Shown here one piece after another: positions 19,335 through 62,945 of a DNA stretch of 64,000 bases (its first letter is position 1; every line of letters begins with the position of its first letter). The notes beneath the pieces were generated by a model. It was not told the DNA's origin and did no database searches. It saw only the letters and a program-made list of their open reading frames with translations. The stretch spans positions 3,963,501 to 4,027,500 of the forward strand of contig CAJFCV020000005.1 of the NCBI GenBank assembly GCA_904066235.2, given 5' to 3'. The stretch is from Bursaphelenchus xylophilus. Its lineage: Eukaryota; Nematoda; Chromadorea; Rhabditida; Aphelenchoididae. Made by a program: the position numbers and the translations under genes.

Positions 19335-20780
19335 GTTTCAAATAACTACTCTTGCTTTCCACGGGTTTTATATGAGCAGGAGGCACCTGTTAATTGTCTT
19401 ATGATGTTATACTTGGGAATAGACATGAAAAATGGAAAAAACGAAGTTTTATGCATATTTACTCCAAATGAGCCTTGTAAAAAAGAATATTAGACCCTAG
19501 AAAGACATGGCCATGCATGGGAACTTTTTTCTCGAACGTTTTCGGCCAAGAAACCCTTCAAACGGCCGGCTAATTGCCCTCTCCTCATGGACAACATGGA
19601 CGAAGTAAAAGCGAGCGTTCTTTTTTTCTAGACTCATTTCGTTGTTTCTGTTTTTCTCAAAGAACATTTGTTCCTTCTCGTTATATCTATCCTCTCGTTC
19701 GTTCGCAATTTCAAAACAGCTGAATAAAAAAAACACGATTACTCATCATTTCACAATTAATTTCTGTTTAAAGAGTAGTCTTTTTTGACGCTAAAAGGTT
19801 TCCTTTGCACTCCAGAACGATCAGTTTGGAATTTCAGACAAATCGAATTAATATAGTGATTTAAATTTGGGTCTTTTCGATTAGAATTTGTCATGGATAA
19901 CATGTCAGAATTTTAAATTTTGTCTTCCATTTGCGTGAAATTAAAATCTGTCTTTCGGAATCTTCAGAAACGGATACGCATCCAATCTCATTACTTTTTT
20001 TCATTTTTTTGACTTCCATTTGTGCCCTTTTCCAGCTGTTTTTGGAGGTTCGCCGTTCAGGATTTTCCGTCGAAAAAACATTTGAATTCGCGTTTTCTTC
20101 GGTCTCTCGACTTCAATCAGTGGTTCGTTGTCTCGCTTCGGTCAATTCAGAGTGATTCACACCGCAAACCTGCGATCTGACGAAATAAACGTCAATTCGA
20201 TGGTGTGGAAGTGGAGATTTTGGGTAAAAAGTCGATAGTTTTGAACATGTTTGTTAGAAATATGGGTTAATCCAGATACTTTGAGGGTTTATCTGTCAGT
20301 TTGACTCCAAAATCAGGCCTTGCCGCCAGTGAAACACCTGTTTTTTGCTGTTTTTATCAGTGCTTTGAACAAAGTGTTATAAATTTGACGTTATCTTTAC
20401 TAATTGTAGATCTCCAGTGATAAAATTTGATATTTTTTGGATCAATACGGGCTAGTCTTTCTGTTTTATCCATTGTTTTAAAATTATCTTGCACTTTTTT
20501 ATTTTTTATATTACACTAGGTTGGTCAAGAAACCTTTACAATTTTGTTTATTTCGGTGTGTAACTACTTCAGCAGCTTTCTCCATTTTCCCTAAAATTCC
20601 AAATTAATTTATCTGGCAAAAGAACGGCGGAACCACCAAAAACTACTTGCTCTTTGACACACCCCGATTCAAATGATTTCTCCATTTTCTTTATGAATAA
20701 TATCAGTTCTCTTCGCGTTGCATTTGTCCGTGATTGTCTTATCAATTTAATGAAATGAGCCGGAATCGAACCCCTAAATT

Positions 20781-24585: not shown

Positions 24586-25229
24586 TCACTTGATCATTTG
24601 GGGCTAAGGTAGTACAACCGCCCAGTTCAGTTTAGCCCCCCATGACCCAGTACAACCCCCCTCGTCCATTCTGAACCCACAAAACTTATCCAAGTTGTAT
24701 GGTCCAGCAACAAGCCCCCTACGTTTTAGATGAAACCCCCTAAGTTCTAGACCAAGCCCCCTACGTTTTACAGGGGAAGTACTCTAAGTTCGACGCTCAG
24801 ATTTTCTTTAAAACACGATTTCTGAGTGAGTGTAGCAGCCCTTGACATAGAAAATTTCGATCTCGGGTTTTTCGCCTTAATGTGACCAACATCGTCCTGA
24901 AAACTTATTGGCAAAACAGTTTTGCCTACTTCCGCCGTTAACATAGTTATTTTTACAATTTATTGTTTATACAGTAATCCACAATAATTCAGTAATGACC
25001 ATCCAGACATTCATGAAATTGTGTATACTGATGTTTTTGAACTCGTAGATTTCAAAAAAAGTGGTTTTGACTCATTAGGATTACTGTAACATACCAAACT
25101 GCCGATTCGGCCGCTAAAAATCGGCCGTAAAAAGTTTGTTTCTGAAAACCCACAGCTGATTTTTACATATGTTAATCAGCATAAAATTCTGCCCTATAAA
25201 CGTTAAAAAAAAGTCCAAAAAGTGGGGCG

Positions 25230-34000: not shown

Positions 34001-37000
34001 AGACAAGAGCTTTAGCTTGCGATTTGCAAAAACAAAAAAAAAATATTTTTTTCTATGCGAAATTGGCAAAGATACAGCCAAAAGAATATTTTTTCTGACC
34101 TTTCTCCTCCCATCGCTACTCGCTCTTGGAAAAAAAAAGTTGTAGAATTTACAGGGAGCCCATGCAAAGCTCCAGCCAAAATTTTAATTAATATGCGCCC
34201 TGTGGACAATGTATACGCTGAATTTTAAGCAAATAGTACTAGGGTACCTTGTATATGTAAAATAAAAATTTTTACGCCATTCATAAAAATTAACTTTTGT
34301 CATCCTAATTTTTTCAGTAATGAAAAACTGCTGGATAATTCTGACAAAAAATGACTCAAATCTTATGTTCAAGAACCAAAATAATTTAACTCAAAAATCA
34401 CCTGGGGCCTGTTTCATCAACGAAAAATAAATAAAATAAACGAAAGGGAAAGCGAGAGAACACCCAAAACACGTTTCGAAGCGAGAGAGTCGCGACAGAT
34501 TAGTAGAGACCATCTATAGAGCGGCGCATTTATCACAGCGATCGGAGTGACTTTTTACGTCCAAAACGGGGGGTTCTCAGCAGTAATCAGTGGATAACTC
34601 GGCTCCCGGTGGTCGTAGAATCACCCTTCCAAAAACCAAATAAAGCTATTCCCTAGAGCTACGTGATATCCAAATTTCATATTTATACTTCAAAAAATGA
34701 ACTCAGTAGACACCTAGTAGATCGTAGTATTCAACTTTTTTGACGTTTTTTTCTGAAAAACGTTATTATTTCAGTCAATTTTTGACATAATGGGATAAAA
34801 TTGGTACCAGTCGATAGCCAAACGTTTACTCTACAAAACTTTTTTAGAGGGGCGGTTTATTTCAAAAAATGAACTCGGTAGACACCTAGTAGATCACAGT
34901 ATTTACGCTTTTTTTACGTTTTTTCGGGAAAAAACTTTGTTTTTCACTCAGTCTTTAACATAATGGGATAAAATTAGTACCAGTCGATAGCCCAACGTCT
35001 AATCTATAAAAAATTTTTAGAGGGGCGGCTTCTTTTGCCCTGTGGCCTGCGAAACGTCTATGTTTACTGTCATGAACCACCGTTTTTGACACAAAAAACC
35101 GCGTTTCGAGGGCCCTTTTCCTCTCTTTTGGTTTTTTCGGAAACGATCGAAGGACTTTTTACGCAAATAGAAGACATCGTCTCACGAAATTGAACGTTTC
35201 GCAGGTCACAGGGCAAAAGAAGCCGCCCCTCTAAAAATTTTTTATAGATTAGACGTTGGGCTATCGACTGGTACTAATTTTATCCCATTATGTTAAAGAC
35301 TGAGTGAAAAACAAAGGTTTTTTTCGAAAAAACGTAAAAAAAGCGTAAATACTGTGATCTACTAGGTGTCTACCGAGTTCATTTTTTGAAGTAAACCGCC
35401 CCTCTAAAAAAGTTTTGTAGAGTAAACGTTTGGCTATCGACTGGTACCAATTTTATCCCATTATGTTAAAAATTGACTGAAATAATAACGTTTTTCAGAA
35501 AAAACGTCAAAAAAGTTGAATACTACGATCTACTAGGTGTCTACTGAGTTCATTTTTTGAAGTATAAATATGAAATTTGGATATCACGTAGCTCTAAGGA
35601 ATAGCTTTATTTGGTTTTTGGAAGGGTGATTCTACGACCACCGGGAGCCGAGTTATCCACTGATTACTGCTGAGAACCCCCCGTTTTGGACGTAAAAAGT
35701 CACTCCGATCGCTGTGATAAATGCGCCGCTCTATAGATGGTCTCTACTAATCTGTCGCGACTCTCTCGCTTCGAAACGTGTTTTGGGTGTTCTCTCGCTT
35801 TCCCTTTCGTTTATTTTATTTATTTTTCGTTGATGAAACAGGCCCCTGTGCCTCATAAAAAAATCACACTTCTCACCTCCGCAAAGAATAAAAAATTTTA
35901 CAGCTAAATAAAACAATTGTTAGCTTGCATGCTGGGCACCACAGGCCACATAGATTCCTTTACACATCAGACTTCACACAGAGAAACGCTCAATCCAACG
36001 ACCAAAAATCCCGACATTTCCAACAAACTTTTGATGTTTTGATTTTTATGTTTTTTTGCAGTTGACTAGCCAAGAAGAAATTGATCTATCAAATTTCAAA
36101 AAATTCAACATCTGACAGAAAGAACGCCTTAATGTTTTCCCACCCACGGGGCCCTGAGGGTACGAATTTCAGCGTCAAAATCCAGCGAAGCCTGCAAATC
36201 ACAGGGAAATAAGCGAAAAATTTACAAAAATATAAGTTTCTGGAGCAGAGAACAGCGACGAAAGGCCTTGCTGACGCATGACTCACTTGGCCGGAAATAC
36301 TGTGTCTCTCCGCCCAAGGAAATCGCCGCAAGGTCAAACGAATTTCACGCAACATGGCCTAGACGAGACTTGGAAATTCCGGAATGCGTAAGCGGGAAGT
36401 CCGTAATAGGTAATGAGGAGCCGAGTCCTGGAATCCGAGGGCGCGGGCCACGGCGTCCGAGGGTGTCGGAGATTTTATGGCTCAGCTGGCGCATTGTTTC
36501 CGACGCTTCCAACTGCATCGGGACCGGAAATTCCTGGTTTCAAAAAAAGTGTGAAATACTCGAGAAAGCTTGGAAAAACATGCTTATAGACACAGTAGTG
36601 GCCATAACCATGTCCAATGTTGCTTGGAGAACTGAATAAAAATCTTCGTGAACTCTCCCGTCCCATCTTACAGATCAGCCAAACCGTCGGGCTTTTTGAA
36701 GTGGTCAAAAAACAAATTGCACGCGTTTATCCCCTGCGGGTATTGGTGCGACAGAGCTCGTAAAATCCCTCAGCAGAATGGGATCGTTCCCCTTCTAACC
36801 TCGTTTCGCGCCCCACAATTTCCGGCCCAATTCAGCATAAGCACCGCGCAAACGTGACAAAAAAATAAAAAAAAATAAGAGGATTTGACAGAGTTAAGAC
36901 ATGAACATAAGTAGAGGTGTAAGTGATGTTTGGATGTTCAAGACAGGGGGATTGATGTCATTTGGAGTGATGGCGACGATAAGACGTAAAGTGTATGGGA

Positions 37001-58827: not shown

Positions 58828-61800
58828 ATGTCGGACAGTGACCAAGGTCCGACTCTCCGTCCACGACGAGCTTCCAATGCCAAGGATCACTCGGCAGCCG
58901 CAGGGCGCGCAGATTTGAAGCAATTTCGCGGGCCGGAGAAGCCCCCGGGAAGCAGATCTCGCTGGTCTCAGGCCTCGACTCTCGAGAAGATCTTGTGGTT
59001 GGCAGTGGTCCCACTGAGAACGCTGATATGCTGCTCGAACTTTACCATCTTCTTCCTGACTTACTTTGGATTTATGATCCCAGTTTTGTGGGCCAAGCCT
59101 TTATGGCCAAGATTTTATTGGTTCTACGAGGGAAAGTTGTACATGTGGCTCCAGGCTTTCATCGGATATTGGGGCTACACTGCTGATTATGATGGTACGA
59201 GCTTTTCTTTTATTTTTCATAATTTTTAGAGCCAAAAATAACATTGATATTGTAGTATACGAATATGGAGATGACATCACTCAGTACTGCGAATCAGACC
59301 GTCTCCTTGTGATGTGCAATCACCAGTCCACCGCCGACGTCCCCACTCTTTTCACAGTCCTTCAATCCAAGGGCGTCGCCACCAGGAAGACGGTTTGGCT
59401 GATGGATGTCATGTTCAGATGGACTCCGTTCGGGCTGGTCGGAAGAACCCATGGCGATTATTTCATTCAGCAAGGCAAAGCGACCAGAGAAAAGGAACTG
59501 TTGCGGCTGAAAGAACATCTGAGGAAAGTGTTTTGGGAACGCGATCGCAGATGGGTTATCTTATTCCCGGAGGGCGGGTTCTTGTATAACCGGAAGGAAA
59601 GCAGTCAAAAGTAAGTGATTTATTTTTTATTTTTATCTTTTTTAATTTTTAGGTATGCCAAAGAACACGGATTCCCGCACCTGGAACACACGACCCTCCC
59701 TCGAATGGGCGCCGTCAAAGCGATCCTGGAAGAGGTGGGCCCTCGAGGCGACGACGACTCCCAGAACGAACTCCACAAAAGCCGCTCGGCCTCGAAGCTG
59801 AAGCTGATCAAGGACACGGTCGGTGCGATCAGAGAGAAGAAGTACGTGAAGGAGACCAGGCCCCCAATCAAGTATGTCCTGGATGTGACCATCGCCTATC
59901 CCAATGGACACGCCCTCTCGTTGTTCACTTTGCTCTTTGGAAACCGAGAGAACTGTGATATCGCGGTGAATTATAAGATCTACAAAGCGGATGAGGTCCC
60001 TTTCCATGATGATGATAAACTCAGGGATTGGATGTACAAGGTTTATGAAGAAAAGGATAAATTATTGGGTAAGGGGGAGTGGAGAATGGCGGGGTGCAAT
60101 TGATTTGGGATTTGAGGGAGAAAGAAAGGCTTTATATTGAGTTAGATGATGATTTAGGGAAGTTGAGGGGATTTGAGGCATGGGTAATATAAATTAATGA
60201 CAAGCCCCGCTCACGCGGGCCTTGACGCCGCTGTGCGCGCAAAGGTCGTCCAACATAAAGTTGACTTGATCGCACAAAGGTTGATGATCGCGTGCACTAC
60301 AGTTGATCGTGCAGGCCACGCTTCGCGTGGCCAACAACGCGCTGGCGCGCGTTATACTGCCTCAAGCCCGGCAGTTCCGTTGCCAAGGGCCGCGCGCCAG
60401 CGCTACCTTTCAGCAGCTGAACTCTTCTTTGAACTTTACCTCGGCCTTCGGCCTCGGCACAGTTTACTCCAGCAGTCAACTACAACATTCAGAAGGTTCC
60501 GTAATCAACGGCGGCCTTCGGCCGCCGAAGCTTCCAGAAAACACTCACTTTGGCTCGGCCTTCGGCCTCGCAGTCATTTTTTGTGTTGCTTCATCGTTAT
60601 TGAACTTTTCCTATGCCTTCGCCCTCGACAGAATCCCGGGAGCCCGACATTCAGAAGGTTCCGTGACCAACGGCGGCCTCCGGCCGCCGAAGCTTCCAAA
60701 AAGTCCCTTTGACTCGGCCTTCGGCCTCGCCAAGTCGTATTTTAAGAAATTTTGGGTTTCTTTGAACTTTACCTTGGCCTTCGCACAGTTTACTCCAGCA
60801 GTCAGCTACAACATTCAAAAGGTTCAGTAACCAACGGCGGCCTTCGGCCGCCGAAGCTTCCAAAAAAAGCTCCTTTAGCTCGGCCTGCGGCCTCGCAGTC
60901 ATTTTTCGTGTTGCTTCACCGTTATTGAAGTTTGCCTCGGTCTTCGGCGGCTGCAGAATCCCGGTAGACCTACATTCAGAAGCTTCCGTGACCAACGGCG
61001 GCCTCCGGCCGCTGAAGCTACCAAAAAGTCCCTTTGGCTCGGCCTTCGGCCTCGCCAAGTCGTATTTTAGGAAAATTTGGAGTTCCGCACACGAACTGCA
61101 TCCAGAATTTGATTCTGCGTCGATTGGGACCAAAATCATGTCGATAGCTCCACTGGCAGCCGAGTTCTGGAAGGGCGGATCCAGAAAATTTCAAATTTTC
61201 GTCTTTGTCGCTAGGCGGGCGGGGTAAGATGGTCGTATGTTGGGAAATAAAAGTTGTTTCTAGGGCAGTTTGACGTGCTGATTACGGGGCGTATCCCGAA
61301 AATTCGCTGAATTTGCTATTCGTGCCCTCAGGGCCGATTTTGTGCAAAAAATCCCGAAAACTCCCTACGGTGCATTCGATGAGCATTCCGGCACCGTATC
61401 AGAAGCCGAAAATAAGCACAGAGTAACTTCAGTCTATTGCCGAGACAATGCCGAAGCCCTTTTTTTGAATTTCGATCTAGTTTTCCCGGAAAACTTTCCG
61501 GAAAATTTGGCCTTTTTTGGGAACTTTCAGAAAATCCCGAATAGCTAAAATACGAAATACGATAGAAAGATACGAAATGTGGTTCTAGGGCATGTCAGGC
61601 ATGCTGATTCAGAATCCGTTGTCAAAATCCAGAAATTCCGTCATCTTGATGGTGAAAAATGGAAAAATCCGAAAAATGTCGAAAATCGCCAATAACTTTC
61701 GACCGGTCGATCCTACACTCACGATGTTTAGCTCAGAAGGCTTAAAATTTTGCGTAGATAACGATGGAACTCAGTTTCGTCCCACACAATAACGCTCACA

Positions 61801-62372
61801 TCAGGTACCCTCAGGGCATATATGTGAAAAATTCGAAAATTCGCGCGCTTTTGGCCCCAGTCGATAAGAAAAAATGTAGAAAAGCTAAGGGCGACTCGAA
61901 AAATGTGAAAAGTTACAGCCGATCCAAAATCAAAAAATCCCATTTTCAAACGCTCGCAATTCCCGCCAGGATGAAAATTCCAACTAAGTGCTGATGCCCA
62001 AAGTCATCGAATCCCTGCACCAGTTGACAAAAAAAAAGTCTCGAAAAAAAGTGCACGTTGAGTATTTTTCATTTTAGCAAATTGGGGAGTTTTTGATTTT
62101 ATTTGGAACATTTTTGGTCAAACAAAATATAAGTTTAATTTTTGAGAGGCTTACATATATTTATATTGCTTTACACAAATTTATGTTGTCTTTTTTCAGA
62201 TCATTACTACAAATACGGCACTTTTGTGGATGGAGAACCAGGACAAAGAGTGGTGGTCAGATGGCGCCGAATCATTGGCCAATACGTGTTCTGGTTCGGC
62301 AGCTTCTTCGTGCAATGGAAGATCTACAGCTACATCCTCGGTGGTGTCTATCACTTTTTCTTCCCGCATTAG
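58828..62372 (+). CDS. LPGAT1-like lysophospholipid acyltransferase
   Basis: Four exons, 58828-59194, 59256-59610, 59653-60068 and 62200-62372, keep frame for 436 residues. An N-terminal polar leader precedes one or two membrane segments (FTIFFLTYFGFMIPVLW). Acyltransferase block I reads NHQSTAD (about 144-150, the NHx4D catalytic motif), block III reads FPEGG (about 226-230), and conserved WLMDVMFRWTPFG and GDYFIQQGK lie between. The C-terminus has a last membrane segment (YVFWFGSFFVQWKIYSYILGG). The human relative LPGAT1 acylates lysophospholipids in the ER. The last intron, 2,131 bases, is far longer than the others (42-61 bases) and carries a GC-rich hairpin array. Confidence 0.92.
60190..61060. 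repeat. GC-rich tandem array of about 162-base units with three-base-loop hairpins, inside an intron
   Basis: Four units, spaced 161-164 bases, each contain the hairpin CGGCGGCC-loop-GGCCGCCG (60,509-60,527; 60,671-60,689; 60,835-60,853; 60,996-61,014) followed by GAAGCTTCC, and a second hairpin of the form CTCGGCCTTCGGCCTCG (about 60,554; 60,713; 60,879; 61,038). Loops alternate TTC, TCC, TTC, TCC, so the array is two copies of a roughly 326-base dimer. Upstream (60,203-60,420) are unrelated GC hairpins: CCCGC/GCGGG, GGCCACGC-TTC-GCGTGGCC (60,314-60,332) and AACGCGC/GCGCGTT (60,336-60,353). Overlapping open frames on both strands here come from GC richness and are not called as genes. Confidence 0.85.
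61061..62199. repeat. degenerate tandem sequence completing the intron
   Basis: Related segments recur about 325 bases apart: TTCTAGGGCAGTTTGACGTG near 61,258 and TTCTAGGGCATGTCAGGCAT near 61,583, and CCCTCAGGGC near 61,325 and 61,808. It ends in the TTTTTTCAG acceptor of the last acyltransferase exon. Confidence 0.5.
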
Positions 62373-62945
62373 GTATCATTGAAAATTTGATACTTTATTG
62401 AGTGATCGCAAAAAGCTCAAAAGTGCATTTTAACCCAAAGTTCGGTCCCGGTTAGGTGTTAGCACTAATATTATTGTCGTATCCTGTGTTAAACTATGGT
62501 ATCTTGTGTTACTTTATATAACGTGTTTTGCTAATGTCGATGTATTTGTATTATAGATATATCGCTAGAATCATTCAGCTTTATGTTAACATACGTGCTA
62601 TAACTCTTATTTAGTTATCATGAAAACGGTTTCCTTTCTATCGCAAGTTTAATCGCTTACTTATTCATTCTATTTTACATCAAATTTTTTAAGTTATAGT
62701 CACAATATTTGTCGCTTTTTTCTGAAGTTTATGGAATAAATCGATTTTAATATTAATTTTTTGGGGTTTTATTTGGAACCTAGAAGGTTTGTGAGATTTG
62801 GGGAAATGAATAATTGAGGAATAAAAGATTTTTTCTACATTTTTTGGCCAGTCAAATCCACAATTTTCTACGCTACTCCATTCTCTGAACAACGGAAAAC
62901 TAATCCGTTTTTCAGAGGGATAAAATTTTAGGCGACCTGTGTCTC
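62373..62945. other. 3' flank of the acyltransferase gene
   Basis: AT-rich, no gene seen. AATAAA occurs at about 62,733. Confidence 0.35.

Follow-up and report, generated by a model that had tools for sequence, protein, structure and literature searches.

A non-autonomous Helitron-type element within an intron of a Bursaphelenchus xylophilus acyltransferase gene, with hairpin loops that fit the rule for extra-stable DNA mini-hairpins

Among the closest described counterparts of the element considered here is Helraiser/Helibat (PMC4778049), in which the 3' hairpin serves as a terminator and the circles join TC to CTAG. According to the model set out there, the helicase pauses at the 3' hairpin while unwinding the element, and a nick at CTAG then gives rise to a single-stranded circle. 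Replacement of the hairpin loop together with its closing pair proved as harmful as deletion of the hairpin; an exchange of the stem kept ~90% of the activity, and a swap with an Arabidopsis hairpin failed (PMC4778049). The same source records CTTG as a variant end, both in maize and in a part of the insertions obtained with vectors from which the hairpin or right end was missing. Other systems with points of likeness are the non-autonomous, rolling-circle DINE-1/Helentron-type elements (PMC4067079) and the telomere-associated Helitrons of another nematode, Oscheius tipulae, which likewise have a very large helicase-bearing frame but lie in subtelomeric extensions, with no hairpin rule described in the accessible part of that account (PMC8022731). 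A separate literature concerns DNA mini-hairpins of the d(GCGAAGC) type: molecules that combine a GNA or GNNA loop with two or more G-C pairs are extraordinarily stable and nuclease resistant (PMC4686876), a sheared G-A pair being typical of GNA loops and the middle base modulating stability (GAA > GTA, as cited in PMC6479982). These share their loops and G-C stems with the hairpins described below, but are described there as short synthetic fragments rather than as a recurrent transposon feature.

The window, i.e., the whole stretch of 64,000 nucleotides of Bursaphelenchus xylophilus DNA that was analysed (assembly GCA_904066235.2, contig CAJFCV020000005.1, positions 3,963,501 to 4,027,500 of the forward strand), had drawn attention through an array of GC hairpins placed at 60190..61060. 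The array does lie there, but this span covers only ~45% of the real unit: the array makes up the 3' half of a non-autonomous Helitron-type transposon of 1,896 bp, 5'-TC...hairpin-CTTG-3' (60201..62096, minus strand), and is not a stand-alone RNA element. Its ends were set from copies on contigs C2 and C6 and from tandem junctions; the sequence reads TC at the 5' terminus (62095..62096, minus strand), preceded by a host A, and a host T at 60200 directly behind the 3' end (minus strand). With Helraiser/Helibat (PMC4778049) it shares the TC start, the T after the 3' end, the 3' hairpin, a RepHel protein, precise head-to-tail junctions and, in 5 of 7 stand-alone copies, the preferred A before TC. 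Unlike Helraiser, which ends in CTAG and has a hairpin with an ATT loop 11 nt upstream of the end (PMC4778049), the window element ends in CTTG, carries an array of GNA hairpins and has a terminal hairpin that includes the end itself. Measured against what is expected of Helitrons, the CTTG of this family thus departs from the 3' CTRR, and the 3' hairpin is present but runs to the very end.

The array is real and exceeds chance. Tandem Repeats Finder reports periods of 162 bp (3.7 copies, 72%) and 325 bp (2.0 copies, 89%) in the window, which confirms the predicted fourfold unit of ~162 bases in A-B-A-B alternation; the units begin 162, 164 and 161 bases apart and, by repeat and hairpin scans, occupy 60443..61085 (minus strand). 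The 8-bp hairpin foreseen for each unit was found at all four places, with top-strand loops TTC at 60509-60527, TCC at 60671-60689, TTC at 60835-60853 and TCC at 60996-61014, the last with one non-Watson-Crick pair. Hairpins of the GGCC-loop-GGCC form start at 60443, 60557, 60716, 60882 and 61041; four have the TTC loop originally ascribed to them, whereas the one at 60882 has TGC. The three further hairpins said to precede the array are also there: the terminal hairpin CAAGGCCCGC(GTGA)GCGGGGCTTG at 60201-60224, which takes in the 3' CTTG, holds one G.G mismatch and has 69 genome-wide relatives; GGCCACGC(GAA)GCGTGGCC at 60314-60332 (top-strand loop TTC), a subterminal hairpin found by the hairpin scan and the right-end tree; and a second subterminal hairpin, AACGCGC(GCCA)GCGCGTT, at 60336-60353, known from its genome-wide relatives (all read on the minus strand). 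Between 60200 and 61060 there are 8 GC-rich perfect hairpins (stem of at least 6, loop of 3-4; some overlap), while 200 dinucleotide shuffles give a mean of 0.22 and a maximum of 2. Read on the strand that begins with TC, the array loops TTC, TCC and TGC become GAA, GGA and GCA, each closed by a C-G pair, and the four-base loops are GNNA. The array would probably have grown by slippage at its own folds. Internal tandem repeats are also characteristic of DINE-1/Helentron-type elements. Elsewhere in the window a 173-bp tandem duplication (34689-35035, 84% matches) and short repeats with TCTAAAACGTAGGGGG-like sequence (~24711-24810) can be seen.

A search of the genome with the repeat, as the original prediction had advised, showed that the array is not confined to the window. 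In the 78.25-Mb assembly of 8 contigs, the 871-bp array stretch has at least 52 matches and the stretch 60060-62210 at least 110, with wide variation in length and similarity. The copies found on C2 and C6 match the window over the same ~1.9 kb and end at the same two points, and the flanks of the three copies diverge exactly at TC; over their full length they differ pairwise by at most 1 substitution and at most 4 single-T gaps, a near-identity that points to recent movement. No target duplication was seen by eye at these three copies, and no empty site was encountered. Among 13 full-length copies read (1,590-2,127 bp, each with 4-9 GGCC-stem GNA hairpins), 7 stand alone, with A (5), G (1) or T (1) before TC, and 6 directly abut a preceding element as CTTG|TC. 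All 11 left ends found have TC, in a search that allowed up to 3 mismatches and had TC as part of its pattern, and 69 right ends genome-wide fit a terminal pattern of which CTTG is itself a part. All 40 right ends that were read are followed directly by T (TC 36, TA 4), including all 21 that, by hand count, have no recognised left end behind them, as the other 19 do. The copies occur in both orientations, spread over six large contigs.

Such precise head-to-tail tandems are consistent with rolling-circle movement, and at C1:4928990-4945976 they extend to a regular array of ten right ends spaced 1,883-1,885 bp. To this extent the suggestion of a satellite seed is borne out, since relatives do build head-to-tail arrays; the suggestion of a mobile hairpin family was right as to mobility, but what moves is an entire Helitron-type element whose ends are defined. 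The matching ends, the three near-identical copies, the 3' T, the TC/CTTG tandems and a partner frame with Rep and PIF1 domains together make the Helitron-type identity of the element almost certain. Its presence also explains most of the length of the host intron, which by splice sites judged by eye and flanking exon frames spans 60069..62199 on the plus strand (2,131 bp, or ~235 bp without the element). The two upstream neighbours measure 61 and 42 bp by eye, in keeping with the earlier estimate of a roughly 35-fold excess (35 to 51 times). The host gene, whose reading frame resumes beyond the intron, has Pfam matches on the plus strand to Acyltransferase (PF01553, E 4.9e-10; 59255..59611, exon at ~59256-59610) and to Acyltransf_C (PF16076, E 3.5e-6; exon at 59654..60067).

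A candidate source of the transposase is at hand in the same genome. There are 17 Helitron_like_N matches, seven of them weak or broken, and 8 of the ten strongest lie by coordinates in or beside arrays of the element, with open frames of 1,520-2,836 codons. At C5:10843682-10851895 an intact frame of 2,738 codons joins Helitron_like_N (PF14214, E 1.3e-30) to a PIF1 helicase (PF05970, E 1.8e-28), the Rep (HUH) and PIF1 combination of Helitrons; by eye one can make out HVHLLLW as an HxH stretch and YVLKYILKG as a tyrosine pair, presumably the corresponding motifs. Past its stop codon the 3' 213 bp of the window element are matched at 82%, a 317-bp part of the AT-rich 5' leader (61399..61715, minus strand) is 84% like the region upstream of the frame, and the partner's 3' end abuts a copy of the window type; its 5' end was sought and not found. 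The window element is best read, on these sequence matches, as a non-autonomous relative of this partner and not one simple deletion product, because the array does not occur in the partner in the same form. Helentrons encode an endonuclease (PMC4067079), whereas none was found among the Pfam matches of the partner's 798- and 1,939-residue parts. A Ulp1-type peptidase suspected by eye in the N-terminal part gave no Pfam match (798 residues) and no PDB match (231 residues tried). Within the coding sequence a GC hairpin repeat of 42 bp recurs ~18 times and encodes GFPSxLxLGHGRPT repeats. Their loops on the TC strand are TTCG or TGCG, the UNCG style of stable RNA loops. Taken together, it is probable that 60201-62096 is a young non-autonomous Helitron-type element mobilised by the RepHel of a longer relative sharing its 3' end; the movement would pass through a hairpin-terminated single strand.

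The loops of this family follow a pattern that is seen when stems are fixed wholly or partly, or flanks are fixed, and the loop is left open in searches for the terminal, subterminal and array hairpins. Terminal loops are GNA or GNNA in 69 of 69 cases genome-wide (GAA 46, GGA 2, GTCA 14, GTGA 4, GTTA 3). The pattern AACGCGC(NNNN)GCGCGTT occurs at 72 places in the genome, with GNNA in 50 of 50 among the matches listed, where six kinds are represented (GTTA, GTCA, GCCA, GGCA, GATA, GACA); the array hairpin GGCGGCC(NNN)GGCCGCC has GNA in 45 of 45 genome-wide (GAA 34, GGA 11). When the AACGCGC hairpin was located by its flanking anchors on a tree of 39 of the 40 right ends (one without the anchor being left out), parsimony left the 14 stem sites unchanged and placed 0, 6, 2 and 0 changes at the successive loop bases; were loop changes evenly distributed, the probability of all eight hitting the two middle bases would be 0.004, a figure that ignores tree errors and gene conversion. 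In the hairpin GGCC[A/G]CGC(GAA)GCG[T/G]GGCC the loop is constant in 39 right ends, and one stem pair is A-T, G.T or G.G. The earlier observation of kept stems and varying loops therefore holds, with mainly the middle loop bases varying in the hairpins tested. Random stem mutation in copies elsewhere, which had been named as evidence to the contrary, was not seen in these hairpins; the fixed-stem searches (terminal, subterminal, array) are blind to it, but the right-end tree, without fully fixed inner stems, could show it. The common loop class goes with quite different stems, i.e., CCCGC/CCCCGC, AACGCGC, GGCC[A/G]CGC, GGCGGCC and TCCAGCC, and GCAGCC in a second family. Across the genome 585 of 1,550 GGCC(NNN)GGCC sites (38%) have GNA on one strand versus ~12% expected from window composition, many being copies of one another; in the rest of the window (stem of at least 5, either strand), the fit extends to 4 of 118 hairpins with three-base loops and 1 of 116 with four-base loops.

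The rule has its exceptions. Within the element, at a stem of at least 5, the 133 three-base loops divide into 89 GNA, 32 CGG and 12 others (GAG 8, ACT 2, CTG 1, AGA 1), and 62 of 75 four-base loops are GNNA, leaving 13 that are not. All but one of the 32 CGG loops overlap a GNA hairpin in another register, so that the same arms can fold in either of two competing ways. Of the 98 three-base loops in sequence read beyond the matched stretches, 36 are GNA. The TCCAGCC hairpins have GAA in 32 cases and CAA in 2, provided that one hairpin next to an inverted copy is taken on the strand of that copy; its TTC loop, at C5:12285109, is most likely a wrong-strand reading and was not treated as an exception, the hairpin adjoining an inverted match at C5:12284205-12284847. 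The loops are of common ancestry, so the copies are not independent.

A second Helitron family, with only short patches of sequence in common with the window element, ends GCAGCC(GCA)GGCTGC...GAGCCCTAG|T. It is found at C1:97477-106230 and 54 other places; of its right ends, 58 across the genome match the pattern, some of them in arrays ~2.4 kb apart, one near the start of C1; the CTAG|T end was seen in 4 of 4 read. Its terminal loop is GCA in all 58 ends that match the pattern, with no loop variation, and further hairpins have the forms CGGCC(GGA or GTA) and AACGC(GTA), beside a few other loops (TTG, ATT, CAGA) in the same stretches. This family supports the loop rule beyond one family, although the two may have an ancient common origin. 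It is tentatively proposed, at somewhat short of even probability, that two Helitron lineages carry a single-stranded-DNA "loop code", in which the main structural hairpins, terminator included, would be capped by C-GNA-G or C-GNNA-G and kept by selection on the transferred strand, the stems differing between hairpins and the middle bases drifting. If true, the pattern of evolution would speak for folding of the rolling-circle strand as naked DNA inside cells, and Helitron terminators would gain a readable rule.

Several readings of the hairpins may be weighed against one another. The original prediction had offered, among others, a structured RNA, in which the hairpins would act in a transcript, either the host pre-mRNA or an RNA made by the element. 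In line with this, stems are kept, the repeats in the partner's coding sequence have UNCG-type loops suited to mRNA, and the C-to-T change at 61,013 leaves a G-U pair on the top strand, but on the other strand it is an A.C mismatch. Each of the three near-identical copies has the change a single time, and the rest of the sequence read lacks it, so that it counts as one event; a G.T pair is also found on the TC strand, in seven copies of another hairpin (GCCGCGC/GCGTGGC), with A.C in three copies of AGCGGCC/GGCCGCC. As a test of strand, the contrast of G-T with A-C mismatches was discarded, there being one event each way among hairpins with GN(N)A loops. RNA tetraloops of the GNRA class have a purine in third place. 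Six of the seven tetraloop kinds on the TC strand have C or T there and only GTGA conforms (4 of 62 GNNA loops), so the loop rule fits DNA; we know of no stable RNA loop that the TNC and TNNC loops of the top strand would match. An Rfam search of 59900-62400 gave 0 matches at E<=1, the spread of copies in both orientations over six large contigs argues against host-gene transcription as a common factor, and the element by itself explains most of the intron. A structured RNA is, therefore, very unlikely. The hairpin loops fit the rule for extra-stable single-stranded DNA hairpins and not that for RNA, as far as their sequences tell. DNA energy parameters treat all triloops alike and place the GNNA loops 0.4 kcal/mol better than the opposite strand; as a means of ranking loops they were abandoned, since GNNA is not singled out but ties with loops such as AAAA.

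A single-stranded-DNA role of the hairpins in rolling-circle transposition is granted a little better than even probability. The RepHel of the longer relative would move the window element, and the TC-to-CTTG strand, by extension of the Helraiser model, would peel off as a single strand. The terminal hairpin with its extra-stable C-GNA-G/C-GNNA-G cap would stall the helicase, whereupon the end would be nicked, while the upstream hairpins and the array would form further single-strand folds for stalling, nuclease protection or protein binding. Alternatively, a RepHel or host protein might read the GC-rich motifs as duplex, by sequence and not shape, the loop rule being then a conserved part of the binding site; the near-invariance of the stems of any given hairpin and the scarcity of covariation, with one pair taking the forms A-T, G.T or G.G, would suit this, but the common loop class on unlike stems in both families makes it rather unlikely. 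That an independent mobile or satellite hairpin landed inside Helitrons is extremely unlikely: hairpins of similar style do occur in the partner's 124-bp repeats and in the second family, but all 45 GGCGGCC hairpins lie by coordinates in or beside copies and arrays of the window element's family, and it is the Helitron ends that delimit what moves. A family of young copies with DNA-specific loops would make 3' end recognition, which to our knowledge is poorly understood in Helitrons, testable by simple hairpin swaps. Conserved stems with changing loops, commonly taken as a sign of RNA, can also mark single-stranded DNA, and the difference between DNA GNNA and RNA GNRA loops can separate the two.

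The element is an ordinary kind of object, a non-autonomous Helitron, with an unusual and possibly informative feature. In the literature searched, with subscription journals mostly outside it, nothing was found that treats Helitrons together with minihairpins, triloops or tetraloops. One survey of B. xylophilus has a single table row in which Helitrons are pooled with other DNA elements (PMC3164644); according to another, the elements recently active in this species are Gypsy, Pao, CMC, Harbinger and hAT, Helitrons being mentioned in its accessible part for other species only (PMC11118728). The window element is not described in the accessible parts of either. The loop rule is not general in what was read, since a different intact RepHel family at C6:11897797 and 11908378, with frames of 1,590 and 1,641 codons in the same orientation, has no GNA hairpins (stem of at least 6) in 13.6 kb of its sequence (stretches of 8.5 and 5.1 kb), within which element ends were not located. 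Further traces of Helitron-like sequence are seen elsewhere: close to the start of its contig, C6 has PIF1-like helicase matches at 19555, 26292 and 33029, evenly spaced by 6,737 bp, and Helitron_like_N fragments occur near the starts of C2 and C4, as well as in C7.
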